In this document: positions 1 to 38,818 of the stretch, one piece after another
Layout: every line of letters begins with the position of its first letter
Position numbering within the stretch: position 1 is the first letter of the stretch
IMG/VR virus record: IMGVR_UViG_3300032223_002826
Span: 1-53,581 of that record
Direction: 5' to 3' (one strand)
Length of the DNA: 53,581 nt
Source of the DNA: a virus
Notes under the pieces: model-generated
Seen by the model: the letters and a program-made list of their open reading frames with translations, nothing else
Database searches by the model: none
Told to the model about the DNA's origin: nothing
Position numbers and translations under genes: made by a program

Positions 1-82
1 ATTTGCACGAACAAATGCATACTGAATAGTTGTTGTAACTAGCGATGCATATGCAGTAAATGTAAGCAAAAATCTTTGCCCA
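1..82. repeat. Terminal direct repeat (circle closure)
   Basis: These 82 bases are identical to 53500-53581. The tail-fibre reading frame continues without interruption from base 1 into base 53499, so the repeat is the overlap of a circular assembly (circular or circularly permuted genome), not two copies of a functional repeat. The unique genome length is 53,499 bp. Confidence 0.95.
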
Positions 83-3827: not shown

Positions 3828-4474
3828 CAGACCACCTGAATCCAGCCAACCGTCATCTCCAGTGCTCCGCGAACAAGATATCGCTTTGACGGCGTGCCAA
3901 ACTCTGCGCTCCAAACATCGCCAAATGGAGACTTGAGGATATGTGGACCAGTTGTATTTGTTAGATACTCAAATAGAATCTGACCGTCCCGAGCCTCAGA
4001 TGGCTCAAAGCGAACGGTAATGGTACCTTCAGCGCCAAGAACATTTCCGCGAACAATCGTTTTGCGCGATGAGCCAAGAGGCTCAAATACTTCTTGCTGA
4101 ACTGGAGTCTGATGGCTTTCTTCTGTAATAACAAGAGTGGCAATATGTGCACGAGCAAAGTCAGCGCCAATCACAGCCCAGTCGTCAACTTCAATGGAAA
4201 CAGTAACAATGTCCCCATCCCCAGATTCTAGCAATGTAGTCTTATTAAACTGTGTTACCTTGTATTCATATGTCTCATTGAAGCCAGCCCCATAGTCTCG
4301 AGTTGTCGTTACAACTTTTGAACTAATCTCTTGAATCTTAGCCCAAACCTGAGCCGCTGGCTCACCAGACGGTTCTCGGCGATAAACAAAATAGCCACCA
4401 AAGTCTGCGTCAGCAATCGTTGAAGCATCCCAAGAGAGAAGTACCGATGTACCCGGAGTTACAATAAGTGCCAT
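3827..4474 (-). CDS. Minor tail protein with Fn3-like N-terminus
   Basis: This 215-aa protein opens with a fibronectin-III-like stretch (SVLLSWDAS, YFVYRREPSG and ETYEYKVTQFN patterns, residues 8-95). A second beta-rich domain follows (residues 100-215) ending in RYLVRGALEMTVGWIQVV. It lies between a large Fn3-repeat tail protein and the tail-hub protein and is one base overlapped with the latter. A distal-tail or tail-tip accessory role is likely. The ribosome binding site is GGAGGAG just upstream. No enzymatic motif is visible. Confidence 0.65.
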   Translation of the reverse strand: MALIVTPGTSVLLSWDASTIADADFGGYFVYRREPSGEPAAQVWAKIQEISSKVVTTTRDYGAGFNETYEYKVTQFNKTTLLESGDGDIVTVSIEVDDWAVIGADFARAHIATLVITEESHQTPVQQEVFEPLGSSRKTIVRGNVLGAEGTITVRFEPSEARDGQILFEYLTNTTGPHILKSPFGDVWSAEFGTPSKRYLVRGALEMTVGWIQVV

Positions 4475-4483
4475 GTCTCCTCC

Positions 4484-24038: not shown

Positions 24039-24302
24039 TTACTCCTTTGTTAGCGCGTCTTTGATAAAGGCTGGATCGTTACGCGCGCCAACGATCCTTC
24101 CAATCTCTTTTCCACCAGCGTCAAGCATGACAACGGTCGGAACCGACCGAATGCCATACTCTTCAGCAAGTGGTCCTTGTTGATCTACATCCACCTTGAC
24201 GAGAGTGACTCCTGTCTCCTCTGCAACCTTGGTCAATACTGGACCGAAGACCTTACATGGGCTACACCAAGTGGCGGAGAAATACAACGCTCTCGCTGCC
24301 AT
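24039..24302 (-). CDS. Thioredoxin
   Basis: The start is ATG 24302, which shares one base with the TAA of the reductase gene. It encodes 87 aa, short for the family (about 105) because the first strand and helix are trimmed. The active site is W12-C13-S14-P15-C16-K (ATWCSPCK). The cis-proline loop RSVPTVVML and VKVDVDQQ strand are present. It is expected to re-reduce the active-site disulphide of the class II ribonucleotide reductase encoded by the overlapping gene. Confidence 0.92.
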   Translation of the reverse strand: MAARALYFSATWCSPCKVFGPVLTKVAEETGVTLVKVDVDQQGPLAEEYGIRSVPTVVMLDAGGKEIGRIVGARNDPAFIKDALTKE

Positions 24303-26569: not shown

Positions 26570-26689
26570 CTGTGCTGGTTCCTTTCTGCTATAGGGGTTT
26601 TGAGTGGATAGGTAGTATATACGCTCTTTTTCATATCTCCAAATCCTGCCGGGCGAAGAGACTGATCTAAAATGATCCATTATCACGCA

Positions 26690-27000
26690 TAATGCCTTGT
26701 ACGCTCTATACCCCTATACCAGTATAGTATATATAATATATATAACATAGTATAGGTATTAGTATGTATAACGCGTATAGCGCTTATATCCTTTATCTCC
26801 TTATCCCTACCTATCACCCTTATCCTCTTATTGCTATTAGAAGGGCTCATATGCTTAGTAGTACTTAGACACTATAAGCCAATAAACGCCTCTCCTAGGG
26901 CTTCCTAGGGGCTTCTGAGGGCATTATAACCCTAGGTCGTAAATACAAAAATAATACAAAAATAATCAATATCCCCTCGACTTTTAAAACGACATGTATT
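26690..27000. other. AT-rich intergenic tract, possible DNA-unwinding region
   Basis: This non-coding stretch upstream of nrdJ is dominated by TATA steps (around 26710-26765, runs such as TATATAATATATATAAC) and later by three CCTAGG palindromes (26893-26936). It borders the iteron-like array at 27289. No convincing promoter for nrdJ could be fixed, although its transcript must start here. The DNA-unwinding role is inferred from composition and position. Confidence 0.45.
26919..26936. promoter_or_regulatory. GGCATTATAA-CCCTAGG motif, copy 1
   Basis: GGCATTATAACCCTAGG recurs with one inserted G at 46618-46635, immediately upstream of the SSB-like gene. Both copies lie in divergent intergenic regions. 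The shared motif may be an operator or promoter core. Confidence 0.4.
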
Positions 27001-27288
27001 TTGTTTAGTCACCAGCGCACTAATAAATGGGGTGGTTTGGAGCCCCCCAAAGGGGGGCTAACCAAGCACGAAGGGATCACGGCTTACCTACGCCGACCCT
27101 TACAACGCGTGCAGGAGCGCGCGCTAAATACCATGACGCGCACGAAGGCAGGTGCGCGCGGAGCGAGCACGGTAGTTTTACGCGTGCGGTAATCGCGCAG
27201 GAAACTACGCGCCTAGGTAGGCGCCTCAAGGTATCCCGAAGGGATACAAACCGCGCGAGCGTAGCGCCTAGGGGTGCATGCGGGAATA

Positions 27289-27443
27289 CCTTGTCGCGCG
27301 CTCAAGGCGTGCGACTTACCTTGTCGCGCACGCGAGGGTACGCGTGGTTTACCTCGTCGCGGGTAGGGGCGCATGGGGTTCCTTGTCGCGCGCGCAGGCA
27401 TGGGGTTTCCTCGTCGCGGGTAGGGGCGCGTTTCCTTGTCGCG
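27289..27443 (+). repeat. Iteron-like array of six CCTYGTCGCG repeats
   Basis: Direct copies of CCT(T/C)GTCGCG begin at 27289, 27319, 27352, 27381, 27409 and 27434, with spacings of 30, 33, 29, 28 and 25 bases. The flanks are also similar (GGGGTTTCC before, CGCGxAGG after). Regular spacing near three helical turns suggests a protein-binding array such as a replication origin or partition/regulatory site. Variable, short units and irregular spacers rule out a CRISPR array. Confidence 0.6.
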
Positions 27444-28170
27444 GGCGTAGGGGTAGGCGCCTTGCGCGCGGTCAAGGATAAATAACACGCGCACGGAAAA
27501 CGGCGCCCGTTGTCGCGCAGGGTTTTTACGCCTAGGCGCGCAGGGATTCTTTGACGCGGGCGTAGGCGCCTAGGCACGCGCGAAAAGGAAATCAGGCGGG
27601 CGTGGTTCATTGACGCGGGCGCGTACACCCCCGCAGGCGCGGCAAGGAAAAACACGCGCGCAGGGTTCTTTGACGCGCGTATGGGCGTAGGCGCGCGCGG
27701 AGAATAGTAAACACGCGCGTAGGCGCCCAGCGCGCGGAAATGGATAAATAACACGCGTACATGCGCACGCGTAGAAAACCCTGCGCGGTTGATCTGCGCG
27801 GGGTTTTACGCCTAGGCGCGCGGCAAGGAAGTTGCCCGCACGGGATTCCTTGGCACGCGTGCGGGTATGCGCCTATGCGCGGCAAGGAAAACATGCGCCC
27901 GTGCGGTTCATTGACGCGCCCACGGGCATGCACGCGCACGCGTAGAAGGAAAACCGCAGGCGCAGGAAAACCGCGCAGGATTGATCTGCGCGTGGTTTTT
28001 ACACGCAGGCGCGTGATTTTCATTTCTGCGCGTGCAGGGGTAGGCATGCGCGCGCGTCAAGGAAAACCTGCGGGCGTGTATGCCTAGGGGCGCGTCAATG
28101 AATCCTGCAGGGGCATGGAGACCGCAGGGAGCAACGCCCGCAGTCTCCGTGCGCCGCGCGAAGGCAAAAC
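27444..28170. repeat. Non-coding region with dispersed CAAGGAA/TTCCTTG and CGCG-rich repeats
   Basis: Degenerate copies of TTC(C/A/T)TTG(A/T/G)CGCG occur on the plus strand at about 27547, 27606, 27666 and 27906. Inverted copies (GCGCGGCAAGGAA, GCGCGTCAAGGAA) occur near 27638, 27818, 27877 and 28055. Small frames here are Arg/Ala/Pro-rich by composition, overlap on both strands and lack ribosome sites, so I read no gene. Many CGCGCG steps and short hairpins are present. Confidence 0.6.
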
Positions 28171-28216
28171 AACCCCCTAAAGGGGGTTGACAAACCAAAA
28201 TCCGCCGTGGGATGCT
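28171..28216 (+). promoter_or_regulatory. Promoter with inverted repeat touching the -35 box
   Basis: A perfect 8-bp inverted repeat (AACCCCCT, loop AA, AGGGGGTT; 28171-28188) runs directly into TTGACA (28187-28192). The -10 candidate GATGCT at 28211-28216 is weak. The repeat could be an operator or an upstream terminator. It would drive the 90-aa gene at 28277. Confidence 0.5.
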
Positions 28217-28276
28217 TGCAAAAGCAACGCCGATGACGGCGGAGCACAAGTCCCCCGAAGGGGGAAGGAGGGCAAC

Positions 28277-28549
28277 ATGACCGAAGCGAAGATGAGCACT
28301 AAGACCCTACGGGTCTTTTTCGGCTCGGCAAGCGATGACGGCGACCTGAACGAGACCGAAGGTCTCGCGGAGCGGCTTGCCGCTCGGATCGGCTTCTCCG
28401 AAGCCTATGAGACCTCTTGGGTTGATGGATCTCCGAAGGAGATCATGAGCAATGCTCGGTATCGTGAAGCCATCGCCGTGCTCTTTACTGGCGATGGCTT
28501 CGGCTTGTGCTTGATCCCCGAAGCCGTCGTCATGGCTCGCCTAGCCTGA
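28277..28549 (+). CDS. Hypothetical 90-aa early protein
   Basis: The start is ATG 28277 after GGAGGGCAAC; an upstream in-frame ATG at 28187 lies in the promoter and is rejected. The protein begins MTEAKMSTKTLRVFFGSASDDGD and has ETSWVDGSPKEIMSNARYREAIAVLFTGDGFG. I do not recognise it. The coding DNA holds at least four perfect inverted repeats (for example arms AAGACCC, GAGACC, GAGCGGC, GATCTCC). A strong terminator follows. It stands alone within the non-coding region and may be the first early protein. Confidence 0.7.
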   Translation: MTEAKMSTKTLRVFFGSASDDGDLNETEGLAERLAARIGFSEAYETSWVDGSPKEIMSNARYREAIAVLFTGDGFGLCLIPEAVVMARLA

Positions 28550-28566
28550 TCCCCTTCGGGGATCCG

Positions 28567-28601
28567 CCCCCTGATCCCTTCGGGGATCAGGGGGTTTTTT
28601 T
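28567..28601 (+). terminator. Rho-independent terminator
   Basis: A perfect 12-bp stem (arm CCCCCTGATCCC, 28567-28578 with 28583-28594) closes a TTCG tetraloop and is followed by seven T (28595-28601). A second 7-bp hairpin lies directly before it at 28548-28564. This ends the 90-aa gene transcript. Confidence 0.92.
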
Positions 28602-29603
28602 ATTCCCTTCGGGAATAAAACACGCGCGTATACGCGCCTCAAGGATAGTTATCCTTGAGGCGCCCGCAGGCACATATACGCACGCGCCTCAAGGAATATA
28701 TATTCCTTGCCGCGTAGCGCGGGCGCTTTTCATTGCCGCGCAGCGGGCGCGCTTTTCATTGTCGCGGGCGCATACACGCGCCCCTGCACGCGTAAAAAAG
28801 AACACCCGTGCTTAGGCGGATCTGAAGACTTTCACTTTAGTGAAAGTCTTCTTTACGCACCTGACTGACTACCAGCGACGCGGCTAGGCTAAACCTTCGC
28901 GCGGAGATCAAACGCGCGAGGTTTTTACGCGTGTTTTTCCTTGTCGCGCGCAGAGGCACCGAAGCAGGCGCGAAGACTGAAATCCGCACCCTAAAAACGG
29001 CGCGGGACTAAGTCGCACAGGGTTTTGTGAAGCCATCCGAAGCGCTGCCAATGCCGACGGCGTGGTTTTGGATTCCCCTTAGGGGAATCTCCGAAGCGGT
29101 CGGCAAGGGCTGCTAAAACCCCCTGAAAGGGGGTTTTCCGACACGCTAAGCGGTGTTTGGGCTTTGGGTAGGGTTCTCCCCTTCGGGGAGAAAAAACCGC
29201 GTTTATGCTCGCTTTTCATTGTCGCGCGCTCAACGCGCCCGCGCACGCGGATAAATGAACCGCGCTCCAAAAACAGCGCGCAGTAAACGGCGCCCAGTTT
29301 TTGAGTAGCCACGCGGAAATCAACTAACGCGCGCAGGTGTATACGCGCGCACGCGCGTAAAAGGAAATAACGCGCGCTACTTAGACGCGCCAGCGAACAC
29401 ACCTAGCGACGCGCCCGTGCACATATATACGCATGTACGCGCGCGCCTAACGCGCGAGCGCAGGGCTACGGCTCGTAAAACTCCGCAGAGTTTTACAGCG
29501 CGCAGGGCTGAAGAGAGCAAAATCCTACGGATTTTGCGACTTCGCAACGCAGGCACGCGCGCGAGTATCCGACCGCTTTTTCTTTGCGAAGAAAAAGCGA
29601 CTT

Positions 29604-29701
29604 CATCGCTATACCCTAAAGGGTATAGCGATGTCATCCCTTTACTCCAAGAGGAGTAAAGGGATGTTTTCTATTCTCGTGGCAATCGTAGATTGCCACG
29701 A
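29604..29701. repeat. Cluster of three long perfect hairpins
   Basis: Three inverted repeats stand almost end to end. Arms CATCGCTATACCC (29604-29616 with 29621-29633) are 13 bp, loop TAAA. Arms CATCCCTTTACTCC (29635-29648 with 29653-29666) are 14 bp, loop AAGA, then TTTT. Arms TCGTGGCAATC (29677-29687 with 29691-29701) are 11 bp, loop GTA. They could terminate transcription in both directions or form a processed structured RNA. Confidence 0.7.
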
Positions 29702-29906
29702 TAATAGGGATTTGCGGCGATTTGAGGCTGCCGACCCCCCTTTTTGGGCTGCCATGGCTCCCCCTTTTCCAAACGAGCCTATCCCTCGTTCTTTTACTTC
29801 GGTGTAAACACCTCGTAAAATAACTTCGGTCTAGGCTCGTTTGCGTGCGCGCTCGGGGGCGCAAAAGTTTTGCGCGCCTCATGATGCGCAAGCGCGTAGC
29901 GCGTAA

Positions 29907-29977
29907 GTGTGTGCGCGTGTACATGTGCGCGTATACGCGTATACATGTGCGCGTATATGTGTACATATGCGCGCGTG
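29907..29977. repeat. 71-nt perfect alternating purine-pyrimidine tract
   Basis: All 71 bases alternate purine and pyrimidine without a break (GTGTGTGCGCGTGTAC and so on). Such DNA, especially with GC/CG and GT/CA steps, is the classic substrate for Z-DNA under negative supercoiling. It lies in the non-coding region before the first multi-gene early transcript. Confidence 0.85.
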
Positions 29978-30136
29978 GAAAGGCTGAATATTTTTCGTAG
30001 AAAAATATTTTATATGTGCATAATGCGAAGGGACGCCATGATGTGAGCAGCGTTCAGAATCTCTTTTTTCAGTAAGAAAAAGAGATTTTACTACGCGCGT
30101 ATTTATACGCATGCGACGCATACGCGCATCACACGG

Positions 30137-30196
30137 CGTGTCAATACTAAATACCTTCGGTATTTACCCTTACTTCGTAAGGGTCGTATTGACACG
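30137..30196 (+). promoter_or_regulatory. 60-nt three-way-junction element, copy 1
   Basis: The plan is: closing stem of 11 bp (CGTGTCAATAC, 30137-30147, with GTATTGACACG, 30186-30196), one T, hairpin with 7-bp arm AAATACC and loop TTC, one A, hairpin with 7-bp arm CCCTTAC and loop TTC, then TC. An element with identical dimensions and junction bases but almost wholly different hairpin stems lies at 31652-31711. TTGACA (30189-30194) is inside the 3' closing strand, so folding as DNA cruciform would hide the -35 box. Confidence 0.75.
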
Positions 30197-30217
30197 CGAG
30201 GAAGGCTCTGGGATTGT
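30189..30217 (+). promoter_or_regulatory. Candidate promoter for 30266-31085 genes
   Basis: TTGACA at 30189-30194 is followed after 17 bases by GATTGT (30212-30217). The -35 is perfect and the -10 is weak. It is located about 50 bases upstream of the gene at 30266. Confidence 0.4.
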
Positions 30218-30265
30218 TGTTGAGGAAGCGGCGCCAAATCGCCGCATCGGATCGGAGGTCTCGCA

Positions 30266-30643
30266 ATGGCTAGGACAGCACGAACACTCGTCAAGCAGCA
30301 CACTCTGGTTGCAACCACATATGAGGCAGCGGTTCTCGCCGCAACTATTGCCCCCTACGGGGCAAATGCGATTGCCCTTGACACTGATGGGGTAATCGCC
30401 GCAGTAGTCTATAAGACTACTTGCGGTTGGCAGATTGAGCGTTCCGCCGATTGCCCTTGGGCAATCCGTGGTCTTGTGATGCAGTTTACTGCATCACATA
30501 TGCTCATGAAGGATGCGATTCGCCGCCTTCGCCAGATTCAGCGCCTCGCCGTTGCAGATCCTAATGAGGATCTGCATGAGTACGAGGAGGATGAGACCAA
30601 TACCTATAAGGTATTGTGCAACAAGTGCAACCAGTATGCCTGA
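30266..30643 (+). CDS. Hypothetical 125-aa early protein
   Basis: The ATG follows GGAGGTCTCGCA. The protein is mixed alpha/beta (HTLVATTYEAAVLAATIAPYG, IRRLRQIQRLAVADPNEDLHEYEEDE) with a final CNKCNQYA knuckle. No recognised family. The coding sequence holds six perfect inverted repeats: 30348-30365, 30414-30430, 30449-30466, 30476-30497, 30554-30575 and 30598-30616. A seventh (30640-30658) straddles the stop. A 10-bp GC stem with a TTCG loop precedes the next ribosome site. Confidence 0.75.
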   Translation: MARTARTLVKQHTLVATTYEAAVLAATIAPYGANAIALDTDGVIAAVVYKTTCGWQIERSADCPWAIRGLVMQFTASHMLMKDAIRRLRQIQRLAVADPNEDLHEYEEDETNTYKVLCNKCNQYA

Positions 30644-30707
30644 TCCCTTTGGGATCAGATACAATCGCCCCTCCCCTTCGGGGGAGGGGCAAGCAGGAGG
30701 TGTAAAC

Positions 30708-31085
30708 ATGGCGGAATCCCTTCGGGATTATGTTCTTGCAAACGGCGGTGCAACTATTCTCCTTGAGAATAGTTCGCCATACACTGCAGAAAACGGCTAC
30801 GCCGTTGGCGTTGCGACTGGCACATACTTTCGGGTACCAGTTGCTACAGCAACTGCAGAGCAACTTGGAGCGCTTGTGAATAATATCAAGGATATTATTC
30901 ATCTAGGCGGCACGATTCTTGACGAAGCCAACGCAGTTGGCTTTTGGGTGAATGATGGATGGATCCACATTGACCCAGTGCAGATCGTCCCTTCGGGACG
31001 AGACGCCATCAACCTAGGGTATGAGCGAAAGCAGGAAGCGATCTATGACTTCCGTAGGAAGTCAGAAATCTTCTTGCCCCGCTAA
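30708..31085 (+). CDS. Hypothetical 125-aa early protein
   Basis: The ATG at 30708 follows AGGAGGTGTAAAC. An upstream in-frame start lies inside the previous gene and is rejected. The protein reads MAESLRDYVLANGGATILLENSSPY with AEQLGALVNNIKDIIHLGGTILDEANAVGFW; it resembles no family I know. Eight inverted repeats interrupt 378 bases, including 10-bp arms AACTATTCTC (30752-30774) and GAATAATATC (30878-30900). It is probably co-transcribed with the gene at 30266. Confidence 0.75.
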   Translation: MAESLRDYVLANGGATILLENSSPYTAENGYAVGVATGTYFRVPVATATAEQLGALVNNIKDIIHLGGTILDEANAVGFWVNDGWIHIDPVQIVPSGRDAINLGYERKQEAIYDFRRKSEIFLPR

Positions 31086-31105
31086 TCCCAAAGGGATTAC
31101 CAAAG

Positions 31106-31129
31106 CCCCGCCCTCTTCGGAGGGCGGGG
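31106..31129 (+). terminator. 10-bp GC stem with TTCG loop
   Basis: Arms CCCCGCCCTC (31106-31115) and the complement (31120-31129) close TTCG. There is no T-run, so termination would be Rho-assisted or the stem may protect the mRNA 3' end. A smaller hairpin, arms TAATCCC, overlaps the stop codon just upstream. Confidence 0.6.
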
Positions 31130-31196
31130 TGAGCACATATATGTAGAGGTGTGTGCATACACCTAGCCGTATGCACACACTCCTGCAGATATGCAG

Positions 31197-31257
31197 GCGC
31201 ACACACATACACGCGTGCGGGCGCGCACGCACGCACACACGCGTACATACGCGCGTA
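31197..31257. repeat. Alternating purine-pyrimidine tract (31197-31219 and 31221-31257)
   Basis: Two perfect alternations of 23 and 37 bases are broken by one G-G step. The composition is CG/CA/TA steps with Z-DNA potential. It occupies the gap between two early transcripts, like the tracts at 29907 and 33413. Confidence 0.8.
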
Positions 31258-31353
31258 AAAACCTCTCCAAAAAAACAAAGTTTTTTTAGTAGGGGCAGTG
31301 CTAGTAGCGACGCGGATCGGAAGCAATCCCTAAAGGGATTGGGAAGGAGAAAC

Positions 31354-31644
31354 ATGCAGAAAAACGATCACAGTCAGGTAGGTTATACGCAGGAGCAAAT
31401 CAATAAGTTCATGGAAATGCATACCCTTGTCGTAGACAAGGAAGCGATGCAGGCTCTTCGTGATGAAGTCAAATGGCTTCGTGAGGTGATCGCCAATCTC
31501 CGTAAGGAGATTGATAACCTCCAAGCAGAGAAGTTGCCTATGGCAACTTGTGCCGCTTGCCACGAAGACTTTCCACATAACAAAGTTATGTGGGTCGCCA
31601 ATCGCTACGAATGCGAATGGTGCTACGAGCGCTTGTCCATATGA
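31354..31644 (+). CDS. Small coiled-coil zinc-finger protein
   Basis: The ATG at 31354 follows GGAAGGAGAAAC. It encodes 96 aa. Residues 10-60 form a coiled coil (EAMQALRDEVKWLREVIANLRKEIDNLQ). The C-terminus is a treble-clef or ribbon-like zinc site with CAACHEDF and CEWCYERL. Such coiled-coil plus zinc-knuckle proteins can bind nucleic acid or host proteins; no specific family. Perfect inverted repeats lie at 31494-31513 (GTAA loop) and three other places in the gene. Confidence 0.8.
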   Translation: MQKNDHSQVGYTQEQINKFMEMHTLVVDKEAMQALRDEVKWLREVIANLRKEIDNLQAEKLPMATCAACHEDFPHNKVMWVANRYECEWCYERLSI

Positions 31645-31651
31645 GCGCACA

Positions 31652-31711
31652 CTTGTCAAGACTAAAACCCTACGGGTTTTACCTATACGAAGTATAGGTC
31701 GTCTTGACAAG
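31652..31711 (+). promoter_or_regulatory. 60-nt three-way-junction element, copy 2
   Basis: The closing stem is CTTGTCAAGAC (31652-31662) with GTCTTGACAAG (31701-31711). Then come T, hairpin arm AAAACCC (loop TAC), A, hairpin arm CCTATAC (loop GAA) and TC. Every length and the T, A and TC junction bases equal those of copy 1 at 30137, while most stem bases differ in compensating pairs. It begins seven bases after the stop of the coiled-coil gene and embeds TTGACA (31704-31709). Confidence 0.75.
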
Positions 31712-31732
31712 CGGGAAGGGTTGCCGTACCTT
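31704..31732 (+). promoter_or_regulatory. Promoter for the 31803-33354 genes
   Basis: TTGACA (31704-31709), 17 bases, then TACCTT (31727-31732). The first gene of the group starts 70 bases downstream. Confidence 0.5.
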
Positions 31733-31802
31733 GGAAATCGTCAAGCCGCCGACGGCAAACGGCGGAGATCGGTAAGTGCCCTAAAGGGCAAGGAGGTCGC
31801 TC

Positions 31803-32297
31803 ATGTCGCTCAACTGGAATGTTGCAAAGGTAGCAGACGGAGTCTGCTGGGAGCCTAAGTTTGACAGCAAGGGCAACCCCGTCATCGGAGATGACGGCAA
31901 GCAGGTTGAGACTATGCGTTGGGAAACGGATGCGCTCATCTGGCAGACGATGATAATCGGGCTCAACAACATTACCGAAGGTAATGTGGATGAATGGGTC
32001 TACCGATTGTCGCTTCTCGCGGTGTTGGACAACGGAGTTGGGACTCGCTTTGTTGATGACAAATGGGTTCGGACTTATCTGACGGAGTCAGATGTTCGCC
32101 GCCACATTGGGCTCTATACGAATGCGACGCAGCAAACTCGTAAAGAGTTTGAGAAGCGATTCCTTGAGTGGGTTCACGAAAGGGGTATCGGCACCCTTCG
32201 GGATGCCGAAGAGGATCAGGCAGACTTTGAGCAGCGCCACACCTATGTCGTAGACAAGGGATGGTACTCGGTTGAGAAGTTGGCGGAAGCAATCTAG
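31803..32297 (+). CDS. Hypothetical 164-aa early protein
   Basis: The ATG follows CAAGGAGGTCGCTC. The sequence has DALIWQTMIIGLNNITEGNVDEWVYRLSLLAVLDNGVGTRF and RKEFEKRFLEWVHERGIGTLRD, a mostly helical acidic protein. I do not recognise it. Perfect inverted repeats include arms GCAGAC, CGTCATC, ACATTACC, ATCTGAC and CAAACTC, spaced across the frame. It is first in a four-gene transcript. Confidence 0.8.
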   Translation: MSLNWNVAKVADGVCWEPKFDSKGNPVIGDDGKQVETMRWETDALIWQTMIIGLNNITEGNVDEWVYRLSLLAVLDNGVGTRFVDDKWVRTYLTESDVRRHIGLYTNATQQTRKEFEKRFLEWVHERGIGTLRDAEEDQADFEQRHTYVVDKGWYSVEKLAEAI

Positions 32298-32327
32298 CAA
32301 TGCCCCTTCGGGGCAAGGAGGTACAAC

Positions 32328-32882
32328 ATGACGGACACTGAAGTTCTACACCCTGAAGGGTGTAAGGTAGACGGCGCAACTTGTATCTCATGCAATGAGC
32401 ATGAGTGCGACACCTCTAGCACGGATTGGCAGTATGCCAATCGTCAAGAAGGTTGGCTCTGCTACTCCTGCTATTGCTCCGACACTGAACATGGTTCAGT
32501 GATCACGACGATTGAGCAGGACGGGACGGAGTCCCGTACGCTTATCGGGGATTATGTGGCGATGGACGCGGAGTTTGGCGACTTCGTGAATAGCGAGAAT
32601 GTGGTTCGCGAATACCATCGTACCGATGGTTGGCGAGGACACTACTGCACAACCCTAAAGGGTTGGACGGAAGTTGAGGATGGCGTTGCCCTTGCTGGCA
32701 TGCCGACTCCTGCTACTGATCTTGCAAGCAAGATCAAGGATGCACAAGAGGAGGGTTTCTTGCCTTGCAAGATTGCCATCATCTCCGATCCTACGAGCAA
32801 TGTGTTCTCGGTTGGCGTGTCCTTCTTCGTAGAAGAAGGCAATGAGGAAGTGTTTACCCAATGGGTAAAGGAGGTTGCATGA
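32328..32882 (+). CDS. Hypothetical 184-aa early protein with Cys motifs
   Basis: The ATG follows GGCAAGGAGGTACAAC, itself preceded by a hairpin (32301-32315). The N-terminal half carries CISCNEHEC and CYSCYC (zinc-binding candidates). The C-terminal half is alpha/beta (KIAIISDPTSNVFSVGVSFFVEEGNEEVF). No family recognised. This is the densest gene for inverted repeats: ten in 555 bases, at 32347-32364, 32387-32405, 32424-32442, 32483-32501, 32521-32537, 32614-32630, 32650-32665, 32718-32735, 32821-32839 and 32853-32869. Confidence 0.8.
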   Translation: MTDTEVLHPEGCKVDGATCISCNEHECDTSSTDWQYANRQEGWLCYSCYCSDTEHGSVITTIEQDGTESRTLIGDYVAMDAEFGDFVNSENVVREYHRTDGWRGHYCTTLKGWTEVEDGVALAGMPTPATDLASKIKDAQEEGFLPCKIAIISDPTSNVFSVGVSFFVEEGNEEVFTQWVKEVA

Positions 32883-33094
32883 GCAAGGTTTTGTGCCATC
32901 GTTGCAATAAAACGATCCGTAAGGATCGTGTCTTCATGCTGTTGTTCACCCCATTCCATAAGGAATGTGCCATGATCTTCGGCGGGATGATGATTATGGC
33001 AACTCCCGATCCTATAGATCGGGATATTCTTACCCGTATTGTGTACGGCGACAAAGTCGCCGACAACATCAAAAACAAGGAGGTGCAAGCATGA
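32879..33094 (+). CDS. Small zinc-knuckle protein
   Basis: The ATG overlaps the upstream TGA (ATGA). It encodes 71 aa: MSKVLCHRCNKTIRKDRVFM, then HKECAMIFGG, a C-x2-C plus H-x2-C arrangement fitting a zinc knuckle. Four perfect inverted repeats are present, including 32912-32929 (GTAA loop). Function unknown. Confidence 0.75.
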   Translation: MSKVLCHRCNKTIRKDRVFMLLFTPFHKECAMIFGGMMIMATPDPIDRDILTRIVYGDKVADNIKNKEVQA

Positions 33095-33354
33095 ATCGGA
33101 TCGCTATCATCATTCTGATGATTATGGCTGCTTTTGTTGGGTTCTTTTTGCCGCCATCAGCCGCCGTTGAGACGCTTCTCAACGGCGAACACTTCCGACA
33201 AAACTACCCTGATGGTAGTTTTATGGTTGGTGTTATCTACTACGACGAAGTCGTAGGGGATCGTTGCGCAATGGGAACAATGCACACCGCTGATGGCAAG
33301 GTTTACAACCTTGACAAGTGGTGCGGCGATGACCTACTCCCCGTTGGGGAGTAG
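33091..33354 (+). CDS. Secreted or membrane-anchored small protein
   Basis: The start overlaps the upstream stop (ATGA). It encodes 87 aa with an N-terminal hydrophobic segment (IAIIILMIMAAFVGFFL, residues 4-20) followed by PPSAAVETL, so it is either a signal peptide or a membrane anchor. The outer part has two Cys (DRCAMGTMH, DKWCGDD) that could form a disulphide. Inverted repeats lie at 33163-33186, 33201-33221, 33240-33256, 33297-33313 and 33334-33354, the last covering the stop. Possibly superinfection exclusion, by analogy only. Confidence 0.75.
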   Translation: MNRIAIIILMIMAAFVGFFLPPSAAVETLLNGEHFRQNYPDGSFMVGVIYYDEVVGDRCAMGTMHTADGKVYNLDKWCGDDLLPVGE

Positions 33355-33412
33355 CGCTTTGCTCACACCCCTGCCCTCTATGTGAGGGTAGGAGCGTGTG
33401 CAATCGCACATG

Positions 33413-33489
33413 GTGTATGTATATGCATACGCACATATACACATGGGCGCGCGTATACGCACGCGCTCGCTCGCGCACATATACGCGCG
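33413..33489. repeat. Alternating purine-pyrimidine tracts
   Basis: Perfect alternations occur at 33413-33445 (33 nt), 33447-33466 and 33473-33489, broken only by single steps. It is the third such tract in a gap between early transcripts. Nothing here looks coding. Confidence 0.75.
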
Positions 33490-33561
33490 GGAAAAAGTTG
33501 GAAAACCAACTAGCATGACGGCATAGGTTAGCGACGCGTAAGAAAAGCGACGCAGCCCAAT

Positions 33562-33605
33562 CCCCCTAAAGGGGGTTGACAACCAGTTTTTTGAGATGCT
33601 ATCAT
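33562..33605 (+). promoter_or_regulatory. Strong early promoter with abutting inverted repeat
   Basis: The inverted repeat CCCCCT-AA-AGGGGG (33562-33575) runs directly into TTGACA (33576-33581). After 18 bases comes TATCAT (33600-33605), close to consensus. It matches the arrangement at 28171 and 34524. It drives the gene at 33652. Confidence 0.8.
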
Positions 33606-33651
33606 GTATATAGGCGAGGGAAGTCCCCTTGGCAGATCGGGAGGTGCAAAC

Positions 33652-34074
33652 ATGAAGGTTCTGAAGGTATCGCTAAGCAACGAGGATGTTGCAGGCATTA
33701 TTCATACCGCCGTTGAGGGTGGTACGAACTACTGGGGCGAAGTGCGCGGCTACAAGTGGACGACTTGGTATGAACCAGACCCCGAAAAGTCGTACGACGA
33801 CGAGTATGGATCGTACAAGGCGGAGCGTGTCAAGGGTCTCCCCAAAGACTTTGTCTTTGTTGAGATTCGCGAGGATGAGGATCTTACTGATCCTGAACGC
33901 AAACCGAATACTTGGTTCCCTCTTACAAGGGAAGCGATTGAGCGAGGAGTTTGCATGGTTCTTGAGAACCATGGGCACCTTATCAACATTCGGGATGGCG
34001 AGATTGACACTGATGCCTACGGCGCCGATGCCATCGTTCAGATGGCAGTGTTCGGTGAACTCGTCTATGGGTGA
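33652..34074 (+). CDS. Hypothetical 140-aa early protein
   Basis: The ATG at 33652 follows GGGAGGTGCAAAC. The protein has LSNEDVAGIIHTAVEGGTNYWGEVRGYKW and VCMVLENHGHLINIRDGEIDTDAYGADAIVQMAVFGELVYG. A segment of the form NYW near the N-terminus with a C-terminal DADAIVQ-like part is common in small phage proteins of unknown role, and I have seen similar sequences without function. Inverted repeat 33954-33973 has 8-bp arms CATGGTTC. Confidence 0.8.
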   Translation: MKVLKVSLSNEDVAGIIHTAVEGGTNYWGEVRGYKWTTWYEPDPEKSYDDEYGSYKAERVKGLPKDFVFVEIREDEDLTDPERKPNTWFPLTREAIERGVCMVLENHGHLINIRDGEIDTDAYGADAIVQMAVFGELVYG

Positions 34075-34243
34075 GCGATGGGAGCAGCGAGCGGCGGCGC
34101 GAGATGCCAAGCGCCGTCGCCGCAACAATCCGATGGACACCTTCTATCAGAAGGTATGGCACGATATTGATCGGCTACGAGCCGATCGCAACAAGGAGGT
34201 GCGACATGATCGTAAGGGCACACGCTCGTCAACGACTCGCTGA
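34067..34243 (+). CDS. Small basic protein
   Basis: This 58-aa protein overlaps the upstream stop by eight bases and the next gene by 38. It is rich in Arg (RAAARDAKRRRRNN), with WHDIDRLRADRNK. No recognisable family. The overlaps on both sides and a tightly packed operon support it; the ribosome site is weak. Confidence 0.5.
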   Translation: MGERWEQRAAARDAKRRRRNNPMDTFYQKVWHDIDRLRADRNKEVRHDRKGTRSSTTR

Positions 34244-34514
34244 GCGTCTATCTGCTGCAGAGCAGCAGCAGGCTATCAGTCATGCTGCTCAGATCGCCCC
34301 TTCCGTAAGGAAGGGAGATGGAGTGGCAGCCGTGCTTCTCCGACTGGAGAAGCGACGCAACAATGGCAAGCGCTCCGTTTCTAACGGAGACATGGTTGTC
34401 GGCATCATTCGGGATGGCGAACTTATCACCATCATGATGCGCCGCGCTAGTCAGGTATTGGACGCAGCGACGCTACGCGTTCAGCAAGTGGTTGATGCAA
34501 CATTGGCGGCATGA
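34206..34514 (+). CDS. DUF4258-like small protein
   Basis: The ATG follows AAGGAGGTGCGAC. It encodes 102 aa: IVRAHARQRLAERLSAAEQQQ, then VGIIRDGELITIMMRR. A conserved HARxRLxER start and a final ITxMxRR strand resemble the DUF4258/BECR (RelE-like) group, but the toxin identity is uncertain. No antitoxin partner is obvious, so I do not call a toxin-antitoxin pair. An inverted repeat at 34298-34315 has a GTAA loop. Confidence 0.65.
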   Translation: MIVRAHARQRLAERLSAAEQQQAISHAAQIAPSVRKGDGVAAVLLRLEKRRNNGKRSVSNGDMVVGIIRDGELITIMMRRASQVLDAATLRVQQVVDATLAA

Positions 34515-34523
34515 AAACCAATC

Positions 34524-34567
34524 CCCCACAAGGGGGGTTGACAAGCCGAAAAACGGCAGGTTATCAT
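34524..34567 (+). promoter_or_regulatory. Strong early promoter with abutting inverted repeat
   Basis: An inverted repeat CCCCC-ACAA-GGGGGG leads directly into TTGACA (34538-34543). After 18 bases TATCAT (34562-34567) follows. Transcription would start near 34575. Confidence 0.8.
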
Positions 34568-34574
34568 GTATATA

Positions 34575-34905
34575 CACGAGACGGCTTCATCGGCTGTCTC
34601 GGATCGGCTCGGTACCAACAGGTTCCTAGGACTGCTGTTGGACTGAGCACGGGGTGAGATTGGACGAGCGAGCGATCCGCAGCCCTAAGTGCGGAAGAGA
34701 GGCATGGCAGAGCGATGGCAACTAGGACAGACGCTGTAAGTCTGGGAGTTGTAGGTGGTTCGGTTGTAGCCGACGGGCATGACAACCGAGCAGCCAACGA
34801 GCGGCGTATCGCTACCGACGGGTGGCGATGCGTTGCTCGGATCGTGGCGGAAGGGTGCATACGAAAGTTCAGCCCCTTCCGCCACCATTGTTTGGAAAAC
34901 AAAAG
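34575..34905 (+). ncRNA. Candidate structured leader or non-coding RNA, ~330 nt
   Basis: This 330-nt stretch between a strong promoter and the next start (34919) has no gene. It contains several substantial stems: arms CGAGAC/GTCTCG near 34577-34601; CCAACAG/CTGTTGG near 34615-34641; an 11-bp stem GTATCGCTACC pairing across GACG near 34806-34831; and a perfect 12-bp stem GTGGCGGAAGGG (near 34846) with an 18-nt loop just before the next ribosome site. It may be a riboregulator, a long 5' leader, or a processed RNA. It does not look like tRNA. Confidence 0.45.
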
Positions 34906-34918
34906 TAGGAGGTGCAAC

Positions 34919-35197
34919 ATGGGGTACGCAACGGCAATCGGCATAGCCGATAGTGGATTGGATTTGGATGTTCAGTTGCAGTGGCATTTCACGAGCAACT
35001 GCTACCCGCCTATTCCGCTCGGAATGATTGAGCCAGCAAAGGCAGCCATTGCGCTTGCGCAAAGTGGCGAGTCGGACAAGATGGTAGCGATGCCAGAAGG
35101 CGTTGAGCACCGAAAGTATGGGACGCAGGTTCCTGCATGGGTGCTCATTCATTCGCTGCACTTGGAAGCATTCGCAGACGCAAGCGAGGAGGAGTAA
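34919..35197 (+). CDS. Hypothetical 92-aa early protein
   Basis: The ATG follows AAGTAGGAGGTGCAAC. The protein begins MGYATAIGIADSGLDLDVQLQWHF and continues NCYPPIPLGMIEPAKAAIALAQSGE. Similar short NCYPP-containing proteins occur in phages without known function. Perfect small palindromes (ATCGGC/GCCGAT, TTGCGC/GCGCAA) persist. The frame further upstream lies in the structured leader and has no start signal. Confidence 0.75.
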   Translation: MGYATAIGIADSGLDLDVQLQWHFTSNCYPPIPLGMIEPAKAAIALAQSGESDKMVAMPEGVEHRKYGTQVPAWVLIHSLHLEAFADASEEE

Positions 35198-35199
35198 GC

Positions 35200-35469
35200 A
35201 TGTATAAGCATATTGGTTGCAACAGGAACATTGGCGTTGGCTTGACAGCCAAAGCGATTGTCAACCTAACGACAACCTCATATGACAAGGAAAAGTTCTG
35301 GCTTGAAGAGCCAGAAGGCATGAGCGAAGATCTCGTAGAGATCATTGGTATTTATTGCTATGAGTGCAACGAAACAATCAAGGAGATTGAACCCGTTGAC
35401 CTTCAGACCTTTGAGAGCGAGATGTCCATTGGCGCGCATAACGATGTGCTAACATGGGACGCCGACTAG
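35200..35469 (+). CDS. Small zinc-knuckle protein
   Basis: The ATG is two bases after the preceding stop, with GAGGAGTAAGC. It encodes 89 aa: MYKHIGCNRNIGVGLTAKA, then IIGIYCYECNETIKEIEP, a CxxC knuckle in a small alpha/beta protein. Inverted repeats CTGGCT/AGCCAG, GATCTC/GAGATC and TTGGCT/AGCCAA are present. A palindrome over the stop (ACGCCGACTAGTCGGCGT) then TTTT resembles a terminator. Confidence 0.75.
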   Translation: MYKHIGCNRNIGVGLTAKAIVNLTTTSYDKEKFWLEEPEGMSEDLVEIIGIYCYECNETIKEIEPVDLQTFESEMSIGAHNDVLTWDAD

Positions 35470-35481
35470 TCGGCGTTTTGC

Positions 35482-35510
35482 TTGACAAGGTTTTTGGCAG
35501 ACTGTATCAT
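35482..35510 (+). promoter_or_regulatory. Strong early promoter
   Basis: TTGACA (35482-35487), 17 bases, TATCAT (35505-35510). It follows directly after the palindrome at the end of the previous gene. It drives the DUF4241-like gene at 35555. Confidence 0.8.
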
Positions 35511-35554
35511 ATAGGTATGCGAGGGACAATCTCTCGCCAAGTAGGAGGTGCAAC

Positions 35555-35911
35555 ATGGATCGGAAGAATGGTCGCTATCGGGTTGGTAGCGTTGGAGTTG
35601 ATGCAGGTATGGTCATGGTCGGAGACCCTTGCTACCTAGACAAGTTCACAGATCACGACTTTGACGACGCAAAGGTAGAGGCGCAAAAGGCGAATGGCAA
35701 GTACGAATACTCGTACAGCGGCGCTTGCGCCGCAACGCTATCGGACAATAGCGCAGGTGAGTTGGGTAATGCTGATGCCGTTGCGGTAAGCAGTGGGTAC
35801 GGCGACGGGGTTTACCCCGTCTTCGCAACTTACAATCATGATGGTCGTATCGTCAAGTTGGAAGTCATCTTTGATGGCGACCATGGCGACGAAGACAGCG
35901 ACGAAAAGTAA
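35555..35911 (+). CDS. DUF4241-like protein
   Basis: The ATG follows AAGTAGGAGGTGCAAC. It encodes 118 aa. VGSVGVDAGMVMVGDPCYLDKF and VAVSSGYGDGVYPVFATYNHDGRIVKLEVIF match the pattern of DUF4241-type proteins, common in phages and bacteria, function unknown. Inverted repeats: arms GCGGCGC and GACGGGG. The C-terminus is strongly acidic (DGDHGDEDSDEK). Confidence 0.75.
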   Translation: MDRKNGRYRVGSVGVDAGMVMVGDPCYLDKFTDHDFDDAKVEAQKANGKYEYSYSGACAATLSDNSAGELGNADAVAVSSGYGDGVYPVFATYNHDGRIVKLEVIFDGDHGDEDSDEK

Positions 35912-35925
35912 GCAGGAGGTGCAAC

Positions 35926-36249
35926 ATGGCTAACCCAGAAGACGCAGACTACACGCCGTGCCAGAAGTGCGGCAATGAGTGGGCTGAAACACTCCATCAG
36001 GAGTGTGGCATCGTTTGTGAAGAGTGCTACAACGCATGGAAGGAGCCAGACATGGGAACAACCTATAGGGTTGTGCGAATGTACTTTGAGGATCACCCTC
36101 GCAAGGTGATTGTTGCTGGCAAGACGCTGGAGGAGGTTCAGCGCTGGTGCAGCGACCCAGACACGAGCAGCAGCACGACAACGAGCGAAGCAGGAAAAGC
36201 CCATACTGAAAAGTATGGGGCATGGTTTGACGGATACGAGGAGGAATAG
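35926..36249 (+). CDS. Conserved small phage protein with zinc knuckle N-terminus
   Basis: The ATG follows AGCAGGAGGTGCAAC. It encodes 107 aa in two parts. Residues 1-45 carry CQKCGNEWAETLHQECGIVCEECY, a zinc ribbon. Residues 46-107 match a widespread small phage family: YRVVRMYFEDHPRKVI, TLEEVQRWCSDPDTSSST, AWFDGYEEE. That C-terminal half also occurs as a stand-alone protein in many phages, function unknown. Inverted repeat 36200-36219 has a GAAA loop. Confidence 0.8.
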   Translation: MANPEDADYTPCQKCGNEWAETLHQECGIVCEECYNAWKEPDMGTTYRVVRMYFEDHPRKVIVAGKTLEEVQRWCSDPDTSSSTTTSEAGKAHTEKYGAWFDGYEEE

Positions 36250-36251
36250 GA

Positions 36252-36542
36252 ATGTCGGCGGATATCAATCAAAAACGCTTCCTTGTGAAGTATCACACAA
36301 TGGTTGTCAAGCATCTGCTCGTTTGGGCGGATGACGAAAGCGATGCAGAGGGGCGCCTCATGACCACGGATTCGGAGTTGTTTTTCTCCCCTTCTGGGGA
36401 GGAAGATCTTCGTGCCCTTGGCATTGAGGTGCTCGGCGACGAACCCGCTGGTCATGGGTACGCAGAAGCGATATCCCTTGGCGAGGTTGACGAAAAAAAG
36501 TCAGTTGACAGCAATACGATTGTGGTCAAGGAGGGCGAGTGA
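36252..36542 (+). CDS. Hypothetical 96-aa early protein
   Basis: The ATG lies two bases after the previous stop with GAGGAGGAATAGGA. The sequence runs FLVKYHTMVVKHLLVWADDESDAEGRLMTTDSELFFSPSGEEDL, an alpha/beta protein, acidic at the end. No recognised family. The palindrome CTCCCC/GGGGAG lies in frame. The next gene starts within its stop (GTGA). Confidence 0.75.
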   Translation: MSADINQKRFLVKYHTMVVKHLLVWADDESDAEGRLMTTDSELFFSPSGEEDLRALGIEVLGDEPAGHGYAEAISLGEVDEKKSVDSNTIVVKEGE

Positions 36543-36787
36543 ACAGGCTCACATTGGACGGACAGAACAGCGTGCAGGTCATGGGCTTCACAGCCCATGA
36601 TGTGCAGGAACTTGCATACGAGGCAGGCTATGAGATCAGCCGCGAAGAAGCGAACGCGTTTCTTGCGCAGCATTCCATAAAGTTTCGCAACAAGATGGTG
36701 GAGTTCGGCAACGAACTCCTTGAGCAGATGATGTTTGGCGGCGAGCCGAACGATTTGACAGCAGCAAAGCAGGCTGCTAATATGTAG
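36539..36787 (+). CDS. Hypothetical 82-aa early protein
   Basis: A GTG start overlaps the upstream TGA and follows AAGGAGGGCGA. The protein is helical: FTAHDVQELAYEAGYEISREEANAFLAQHSIKFRNKMVEFGNELL. It may be a small DNA-binding protein, but no helix-turn-helix is certain. A palindrome with 8-bp arms CATGGGCT occurs. The last 33 bases contain a promoter (36755-36783). Confidence 0.7.
   Translation: MNRLTLDGQNSVQVMGFTAHDVQELAYEAGYEISREEANAFLAQHSIKFRNKMVEFGNELLEQMMFGGEPNDLTAAKQAANM
36755..36783 (+). promoter_or_regulatory. Early promoter within end of 36539 gene
   Basis: TTGACA (36755-36760), 17 bases, TAATAT (36778-36783). It overlaps the end of the preceding gene and drives the gene at 36827. 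Confidence 0.75.
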
Positions 36788-36826
36788 GTATCATGCATTT
36801 GCATGAGTAAGCATAGGAGGTGTGTT

Positions 36827-37300
36827 ATGGCAGGCGAATGGAAGAATATCCACGATGAGTCGCCACGGGGCGATATTACGATTTCGGTGCTTGCGACAAC
36901 CGTGGATGAGGATGAGTCGGACTACTGGTCAAACAACTACAATGTGTTGTTTGAGCGCAACTATCAGGGGATTGTATACTCGTACCATCTTACGATGGAG
37001 GATGCAATCAAGAACGAGCGCCCAGTGTTTGAGCAGTGCTATTACTATGACCTCTGGCTCTACGAGGGAGAGCCTTCGGCTAACATCGGCAGCAATCGCA
37101 ACAAGTATCTTGATGCGATTCATAAGTGCGGTGTTGAAGATGGCAACCCTAAGTCCTACGGACTTATCTCGCACGATTGCAAGGATTGCGCCTTGGCAAT
37201 CTGGTGGGAAGAGTACCAAGACGGCAATGCATCCTATGAGGATGCAGAAAAGTATATGGACGAGCATAAGTATGCTCTTCTCAAGGAGGTGCAATCATGA
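36827..37300 (+). CDS. Hypothetical 157-aa early protein
   Basis: The ATG follows ATAGGAGGTGTGTT. It has ISVLATTVDEDESDYWSNNYNVLFERNYQG, aromatic-rich YYYDLWLYEG, and SHDCKDCALAIWWEEY, so a possible zinc or redox CxxC. No family recognised. Inverted repeats: arms CAAACAAC, GGCTCT, AAGTCC, GCATCC. It overlaps the next gene by four bases. Confidence 0.75.
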   Translation: MAGEWKNIHDESPRGDITISVLATTVDEDESDYWSNNYNVLFERNYQGIVYSYHLTMEDAIKNERPVFEQCYYYDLWLYEGEPSANIGSNRNKYLDAIHKCGVEDGNPKSYGLISHDCKDCALAIWWEEYQDGNASYEDAEKYMDEHKYALLKEVQS

Positions 37301-37554
37301 CGATCCTAACGAACGAACAGGTTCAGCGACGGTCTGAGCAGTTAGCGCTCGGCTTTGCGCTCACGGATTGGGGAGACCTAACCTATGAGCAGGCAATCAG
37401 CGCATTGGAAGCCGCAGGCAATGACAGTTTTGCGTTTCCCGATCCGATTGTGCCATGGGAGGCATTTGAGCATTGGAGCCCGCAATCGGTAGCCAACGAG
37501 ATTGATGGCATGCGAGCCGCAATCTATCTGGCTTTCAGCCAAGAAGAGGCGTAG
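37297..37554 (+). CDS. Hypothetical 85-aa early protein
   Basis: The start overlaps the previous stop (ATGA) after AAGGAGGTGCAATC. It is a small helical acidic protein (LTNEQVQRRSEQLALGFALTDWGDLTYEQAISALEAAG). Unrecognised. Confidence 0.7.
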   Translation: MTILTNEQVQRRSEQLALGFALTDWGDLTYEQAISALEAAGNDSFAFPDPIVPWEAFEHWSPQSVANEIDGMRAAIYLAFSQEEA

Positions 37555-37872: not shown

Positions 37873-37902
37873 TTGACAGGGTTGGAGTTGGGGTGCTAAT
37901 AT
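37873..37902 (+). promoter_or_regulatory. Promoter for ardC-like gene
   Basis: TTGACA (37873-37878), 18 bases, TAATAT (37897-37902). Confidence 0.75.
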
Positions 37903-37945
37903 GTATGAGTAGGTGCTTACCTACGCAAGAGAAGGAGGTGCTCAG

Positions 37946-38818
37946 ATGAGCAACAAGGTTTACGAGGTGATCGCCGAAAGCATCACCAATGCACTGGACA
38001 AAGGCGTCGTGCCATGGCGCAAGCCGTGGAACGCGGAGCAGATGACGCCACGCAACATGAAGGGCGTGCCGTATCGTGGCATCAATGTGTGGTTGCTCAT
38101 GCTGCAGGGTCATGGTAGCCCGTATTGGGCAACCTACAAGCAGGTCAACGAGGCTGGCGGCACGATTGTGGCAGGCGCAGAAGGTACGCCTATTGTGTTC
38201 TGGTCGCGCTACGAGGTTGAAGACGAGAATGCAGGCGGCGAAAAAACCGTCAAGAGCATCCCTGTGATTCGCTACTACAAGGTGTTCAATCAGTCGCAGA
38301 TCAAGGGCATTGAGTTCCCTCCGCTGCCTACGGTAGGCAAGAGCGAGTTCTCGCCGATTGAGGCTGCAGAGCGTGTGATTTCATCTATGCCAAAGCGCCC
38401 AGACATTAGCGATAATGGTGGAGCCAAGGCGTATTATGTCCCCTCGCAGGATAGTATTCACATGCCAAGCAAGGATACCTTTGAGAGCGCAAATGGGTAT
38501 TATGCGACGCTCTTCCACGAGATGGCGCATAGCACTGGGCATTCGTCTCGCCTCGCTCGCAAGAGCGTTGATGAAGCGGCGCCATTCGGTAGCGACATCT
38601 ACGCTCAGGAAGAGTTGATTGCTGAGTTTGCTTCGGCGTTCCTCTGCGGAGAGACTGGCATCTCGCCGTCGGTGATTGAGAACGCTGCAGCATATATTGC
38701 TGGCTGGAAGCGAGCGATCAAGGACGACACCCGTGCCGTGATCTCCGCAGCAAGCAAGGCGCAGAAGGCGGCTGACTACATCCTCGGACGGGAGGATGCA
38801 GTTGCCAAGGCAGCGTAG
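37946..38818 (+). CDS. ArdC-like antirestriction protein
   Basis: The ATG at 37946 follows GAAGGAGGTGCTCAG. It encodes 290 aa. The N-terminal domain (residues 1-110) has VVPWRKPWN, YRGINVWLL, YWATYKQVNEAGG and FWSRYE, the ssDNA-binding domain of the ArdC/TraC family. The C-terminal zincin domain has FHEMAHSTGHSSRL with HExxH at 191-195 and the downstream EELIAEFASAFLC. Family members protect incoming DNA against restriction. The gene has its own promoter and lies in the early block, consistent with rapid expression after injection. Confidence 0.88.
   Translation: MSNKVYEVIAESITNALDKGVVPWRKPWNAEQMTPRNMKGVPYRGINVWLLMLQGHGSPYWATYKQVNEAGGTIVAGAEGTPIVFWSRYEVEDENAGGEKTVKSIPVIRYYKVFNQSQIKGIEFPPLPTVGKSEFSPIEAAERVISSMPKRPDISDNGGAKAYYVPSQDSIHMPSKDTFESANGYYATLFHEMAHSTGHSSRLARKSVDEAAPFGSDIYAQEELIAEFASAFLCGETGISPSVIENAAAYIAGWKRAIKDDTRAVISAASKAQKAADYILGREDAVAKAA

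Follow-up and report, generated by a model that had tools for sequence, protein, structure and literature searches.

The window analysed here, an entire viral record of 53,581 bp (IMGVR_UViG_3300032223_002826), carries a dense array of short, perfect inverted repeats in its early genes, in numbers well above those of codon-preserving shuffles, and in the non-coding DNA among them. The stems admit Watson-Crick pairs only, arms covary among relatives, and like clusters occur in other phages. We favour, at a probability of roughly 0.55, the reading that selection maintains these repeats in the immediate-early unit as DNA mini-hairpins able to form cruciforms, and that template switching diversifies and repairs them.

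Inverted repeats in the early genes

Counting perfect inverted repeats with arms of at least 6 bp and loops of at most 8 nt, we obtained densities of 16–24 per kb at 28–34 kb and 9–11 per kb at 34–38 kb, versus ~3 per kb in the remaining window. The eight genes between 28277 and 33354 contain 52 such repeats, as compared with 8.4 ± 2.8 (maximum 18) in 200 synonymous-codon permutations that retained the protein and codon usage; likewise, the genes from 33652 to 37554 contain 34, as compared with 7.4. The leftward structural genes (18.6 kb) showed only a mild excess, with 49 repeats versus 28.6 in shuffles, and no GNA or TNC loops.

The original prediction, made without database searches, had described an early region saturated with perfect repeats, counting ten in the gene at 32328–32882 and 45–50 in the eight genes, at a density not seen in the leftward structural genes. 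Our recounts gave 11 and 52 and the lower structural density holds; because the repeats at 28–37 kb exceed codon-preserving shuffles, the refutation it had named, no such excess, fails, and the observation as a whole is borne out. Its limits of 28277–37300 do enclose repeat-rich DNA, but the zone starts at ~28195, takes in the non-coding DNA at 28.55–30.2 kb, is densest to ~34.4 kb and fades toward 37.3 kb. The zone lies where a leftward-reading structural block (portal, tail, terminase and ribonucleotide reductase, RNR) gives way, across a divergent junction at 26.7–28.3 kb, to the rightward early genes; the cumulative GC-skew minimum falls at 25–27 kb. The features are as follows.

26700–28276, unstranded: divergent junction, where the leftward block stops (RNR gene at 24302–26686, minus strand) and the early genes start rightward
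28195–34400, unstranded: core hairpin zone, ~100 perfect inverted repeats with arms of at least 6 bp, in coding and non-coding DNA
34400–37300, unstranded: fading tail of the zone, 9–11 repeats per kb, down to background past ~38 kb
28277–28549, plus strand: early gene, 5 hairpins; a diverged homologue takes its place in the sister contig L002
30266–30643, plus strand: early gene, 7 repeats versus 1.7 expected
30708–31085, plus strand: early gene of the phrog_17808 family, 8 hairpins
31354–31644, plus strand: early gene, 4 repeats versus 0.45 expected
31803–32297, plus strand: early gene, 6 repeats versus 0.9 expected
32328–32882, plus strand: early gene, 11 repeats versus 2.0 expected
32879–33094, plus strand: early gene, 5 repeats versus 0.5 expected
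33091–33354, plus strand: early gene, 6 repeats versus 0.8 expected
37913–38818, plus strand: ArdC-type anti-restriction gene, immediately downstream of the zone

The replacement at 28277–28549 is a gene swap between phages otherwise 94–98% identical, and hairpins flank the exchange, just 5' of the start and just 3' of the stop. The non-coding stretches at 27000–28200 and 28600–30200 have a G+C content of ~0.6 and are rich in CGCGCG/GCGCGC-type words. Sigma70-like promoters (TTGACA, 17–18 nt, TATCAT/TAATAT) recur upstream of later early genes, at 33580–33610, 34537–34570, 35483–35515 and 37873–37905, some of them immediately 3' of a CCCCC..GGGGG hairpin. Comparison of the window early genes with phage records and IMG/VR, as DNA or protein, yielded remote matches at best, and the window ArdC had no close host or prophage match in bacterial genomes.

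Anatomy, pairing and covariation of the hairpins

The original prediction gave arms of 6–10 bp and loops mostly of 2–6 nt. Both are indeed short, but loop length peaks sharply at 3 nt (57 of 137 listed repeats) and the stems form a discrete class of ~6–8 bp. For 3-nt loops at 28.27–33.36 kb, stems of 1–5 bp are about as frequent as in the structural half, whereas there are 17 stems of 7 bp versus 0.8, and 18 of 8 bp versus 0. The distribution is likewise bimodal in four groups of other phages (A, B, C and D; see below) and in the window, following background up to 4–5 bp with a mode at ~7 bp. Loops are also non-random: the closing pair of window triloops is C-G in 44 of 55 and G-C in one, and among 394 distinct triloops it is C-G in 293, T-A in 75, A-T in 16 and G-C in 10, with 159 GNA/TNC loops versus 70 expected. 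Most window loops are GNA closed by C-G, or TNC, its counterpart on the opposite strand. C-G-closed GNA and AAA loops are known in general as unusually stable DNA mini-hairpins.

As originally proposed, each repeat has its own sequence and codon phase varies: stems are nearly all different across the 137 repeats, unlike the copies of REP, BIME and other mobile palindromes, which have a sequence in common, and loop phases within genes are 18/9/8. Regular spacing was rejected as a general rule, since the repeats at 30.2–33.4 kb are more even than random (coefficient of variation 0.64 versus 0.97, p 0.0002) and those of other phages are spaced otherwise. The in-gene hairpins are not intrinsic terminators, as most lie within genes and lack T runs; terminator-like hairpins with ttcg loops do occur at a few intergenic sites in the window. 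Two hairpins stand apart.

28567–28594, plus strand: intrinsic-terminator-like hairpin, ttcg tetraloop followed by a T run, separate from the in-gene class
28634–28663, unstranded: hairpin with 14-bp arms, its loop GT inverted to AC in L002, where the arms also contain a single mismatch

Pairing was strictly Watson-Crick. With all zones pooled, stems of at least 7 bp numbered 397 when perfect, versus 34 expected from the flanks, and 48 when interrupted by a single G·T or A·C mismatch, versus a background of 49. Oriented by transcription, they comprised 14 with G·T, 11 with A·C and 207 perfect stems. Outside genes the loops are strand-symmetric (38 GNA and 37 TNC; 28 ANA and 30 TNT). Together, Watson-Crick-only stems and strand-symmetric loops outside genes speak for a cause at the level of DNA and against mRNA structure.

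Arms changed in concert. In 16 pairs of relatives, with every sequence used once (1491 stem pairs), we found 132 single arm changes, as compared with 328 expected, and 43 compensatory double changes, as compared with 9.6 expected. Twelve of 71 changed loops were exact reverse complements, mostly with the arms still fully paired, the GT-to-AC loop at 28634–28663 among them, and stems had diverged by ~8%, versus ~12% in other zone sequence. In an alignment of a group B gene from 18 sequences, covariation was above all 500 shuffles (0/500) and above every slid control, although the structure is favoured over slid controls because it was derived from those same sequences. The covariation evidence comes from groups A, B and a few others, the window's only near relative, L002, ending at 29074 and affording a comparison over 28.2–29.07 kb; the other refutation that the original prediction had named, a lack of compensatory changes, fails as well, on relatives from other phage groups. 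Gaps of 15 nt adjoin hairpins in two alignments.

Hairpin zones in other phages

A search for ArdC neighbours led to a second phage with a like cluster, L035, and further loci came from two viral scans with a leader hairpin motif as the query. In all, at least 43 non-redundant viral loci contain hairpin clusters, in eight groups without substantial mutual nucleotide similarity among the matches listed; the clusters are clear in groups A, B, C, D and the window, and weak in E, F and G. The sample is not unbiased, because the scans were seeded on one hairpin motif. Hairpin density per locus is bimodal. Long contigs that were read whole or nearly so generally contain one zone, with 11–18 repeats per kb versus 0–4 elsewhere, located where a leftward block ends and a rightward block begins; zones are weaker in group C (6 per kb) and lower still in group F. 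All zone phages are uncultured and mostly represented by genome fragments. Perfect repeats reach 9 per kb in L267, a locus not classed as a zone.

No gene common to all groups was found, only scattered shared genes. The phrog_17808-family gene has 8 hairpins in the window, as compared with 5, differently placed, in the L229 homologue and 0 in that of the cultured Microbacterium phage IAmGroot, indicating that hairpins are a property of the region, not of the gene. ArdC was rejected as an obligatory partner: it adjoins the zone in the window and group A, and had no match in the searched records of other groups. No zone is present in seven records whose ArdC, terminase or early genes are related. 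Searches for cultured relatives of zone genes yielded none for one group B gene and, for the L231 zone, none except a tRNA; at the Rfam gathering score the window, L035 and L245 had no match and L231 only a tRNA.

The leader hairpin used as query lies 5' of early genes and has a conserved TGAACGNAGTGA tip (a GNA loop with tandem G-A steps). It occurs in L035 at 8620–8670, about 9930 and about 10905, and in at least five places in L099; its stems vary between copies, with complementarity retained. Exact 17-mer leader tips gave at least 120 matches in each of the two scans, many in contigs without a hairpin zone. The window itself has two leaders folding as three-way junctions, both read directly.

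30140–30193, plus strand: three-way-junction leader, copy 1, GTCAATAC [TAAATACC ttc GGTATTTA][CCCTTAC ttc GTAAGGG] GTATTGAC
31653–31710, plus strand: three-way-junction leader, copy 2, a paralogue of copy 1 with compensatory changes in all three stems

The whole of L099 (positions 1–9750 of IMGVR_UViG_3300006919_002226) is one palindrome with arms of ~4.9 kb and the hairpin TTAATACTAAC-ta-GTTAGTATTAA at its axis; the sister contig L203 contains this hairpin and lacks the mirrored copy. The palindrome arose either in the cell, by fold-back synthesis, or as a chimera during amplification.

Explanations for the array and comparison with known systems

According to the reading we favour, the first early transcription unit of the window phage, and of several unrelated phages, would carry a dense mini-hairpin array over coding and non-coding DNA, its unit being a Watson-Crick-perfect stem of ~6–9 bp with a very small loop, as a rule C(GNA)G on either strand. 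Selection would act on structure in DNA, with a probable stem threshold of ~6–7 bp: the repeats would extrude as cruciforms while the early DNA is negatively supercoiled, or fold as hairpins while it is transiently single-stranded. Template switching in replication would supply and repair the arms and flip the loops. In phage N4, a C-G closing pair and a loop G and A are needed for DNA hairpin extrusion at physiological supercoiling (PMC4496689). Cruciform or single-strand hairpin formation in the immediate-early unit fits the constant location, a loop rule that permits extrusion, the stem threshold and the constraint at the level of DNA. The array might signal to transcription or replication through its structure, absorb supercoils, or hinder host factors that depend on duplex DNA; we speculate that a sequence-independent signal or supercoil sink holds the early unit accessible after entry. 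The original prediction had put forward cruciforms recognised by a protein: the cruciform part gains support from the C(GNA)G closing pair and loop, strand symmetry and Watson-Crick-only stems, but no gene for a hairpin-binding protein was recognised.

Several points weigh against this reading. No gene for a hairpin-binding protein, resolvase, transposase, reverse transcriptase or phage RNA polymerase was recognised, the polymerase search having no working positive control. Stems are not conserved in the pairs L097/L153 and L265/L298; the ~12% background divergence pools non-coding with coding sites, and an alignment without gaps is biased toward conserved hairpins. Stems of 3–5 bp are in excess too in group A, the stem-length peaks could partly mirror a mutational step size, and nearest-neighbour energy tables, for DNA or RNA, fail to predict the loop preference. 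These tables were also rejected as a means to tell DNA from RNA loops, since C-closed triloops receive nearly equal scores.

The alternative that survives best, unlikely in our judgement, is purely mutational: template switching linked to transcription or replication would make and perfect functionless hairpins, tolerated in early accessory genes. Both-arm changes and loop inversion are named template-switch footprints (PMC8794818), and both were seen here, the latter exact in 12 of 71 changed loops; the 15-nt gaps beside hairpins in two alignments and the hairpin at the axis of the L099 palindrome (4.9-kb arms) point the same way, as does a higher frequency of quasi-palindrome mutations in highly transcribed DNA (PMC3820800). 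However, neutral homogenisation of arms predicts ~185 both-arm changes (1491 pairs × 12.4% divergence), as compared with 43 seen, and short or decayed stems are not in excess in the window, from which we infer purifying selection besides template switching. Furthermore, stems diverged less than the sequence around them, the frequency of loop inversion per hairpin is only about half that of substitution per site, and a single zone at the early junction is left unexplained. Strand-switch mutagenesis, another of the causes originally suggested, is thus supported as a process by the exact inversions and both-arm changes, but not as the sole cause, which would also leave the stem-length class unexplained.

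We hold it quite improbable that the array is camouflage from guide-based immunity, with self-complementary protospacers giving self-folded guides from either strand. This would explain why the stems are Watson-Crick only, the loops strand-symmetric, the sequences unique and the position early, and misfolded guides weaken Cas9 (PMC8789806); nevertheless, a whole hairpin falls in only 27–37% of 32-nt windows, equal to random placement of hairpins.

Selection for structured early mRNA, whether for stability or for evasion of a nuclease or RNA-targeting defence, was also among the original suggestions and merits slightly less credence still. The zone lies within a transcription unit, promoter-proximal and fading downstream, some ribosome-binding sites have hairpins upstream, and the sense strand of genes has 96 GNA versus 40 TNC loops. 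This in-gene bias is plausibly attributed to amino-acid content, whereas outside genes the loops are balanced, as given above. RNA stems would accept G·T, which was no commoner than A·C or than background, and UUCG tetraloops, stable only in RNA, are confined in the window to the intergenic terminator-like sites.

Very doubtful is the idea that each hairpin is an N4-like promoter used by a phage virion RNA polymerase: the loop and closing-pair rule is identical, but the ~100 sites lie mostly within genes, in both loop orientations and without conserved stem bases, and PF00940 was unmatched in 14 records, as were the positive controls. Chance, composition, codon bias or assembly artefact, for which only possible chimeras such as L099 speak, is refuted by codon shuffles, multi-genome covariation, intact reading frames and occurrence in eight groups, and has a negligible chance of being right.

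We tentatively propose, as somewhat less assured than the favoured reading itself, a class of phage genome architecture whose immediate-early unit bears a second code, one of DNA structure, made up of selected, extrudable mini-hairpins without a common sequence, read or felt as structure by the cell and arisen or spread in several unrelated lineages. If so, strong selection for DNA secondary structure would act on protein-coding phage DNA at a single, fixed position in several unrelated lineages, cruciform formation in vivo, long debated, would become a testable property of natural genomes, and the zones would be a natural laboratory for template switching. As sequence alone suffices to detect a zone easily, direct tests could show how far zones have spread, in which hosts they occur and how they relate to defence or early transcription.

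A search of open-access papers on hairpins, palindromes and template switching, most subscription journals lying outside this coverage, turned up no comparable array. The early promoters of N4 share with the zone a short stem, a 3-nt loop with 5' G and 3' A, C-G closing and a place in the phage early region. Nevertheless, the three N4 promoters are conserved in their stem bases, and their supercoil-extruded hairpins are read by the virion polymerase, whereas the zone has ~100 or more hairpins, within genes and in both orientations, with no common stem sequence and no recognised polymerase. Template-switch hairpins (Mönttinen and Löytynoja 2022, PMC8794818) show the same compensatory both-arm changes, loop inversion and insertions beside stems, but as events scattered in rRNA and microRNA loci, unlike a dense array with DNA-type loops, a size class and evidence of purifying selection. 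REP, BIME, REPIN and other palindromic repeats also place many short palindromes in one bacterial or phage genome; these are copies of one sequence family, whereas the zone stems all differ and their arms covary. The target-site hairpin of diversity-generating retroelements and integron attC sites are likewise structure-specific DNA hairpins, which serve recombination, with one hairpin per site instead of one per 30–60 nt, and no reverse transcriptase or integron integrase was recognised here. Finally, structured RNA genomes and mRNAs have many hairpins over coding sequence with compensatory changes, but the zone stems are intolerant of G·U and the loops strand-symmetric outside genes, pointing to DNA.

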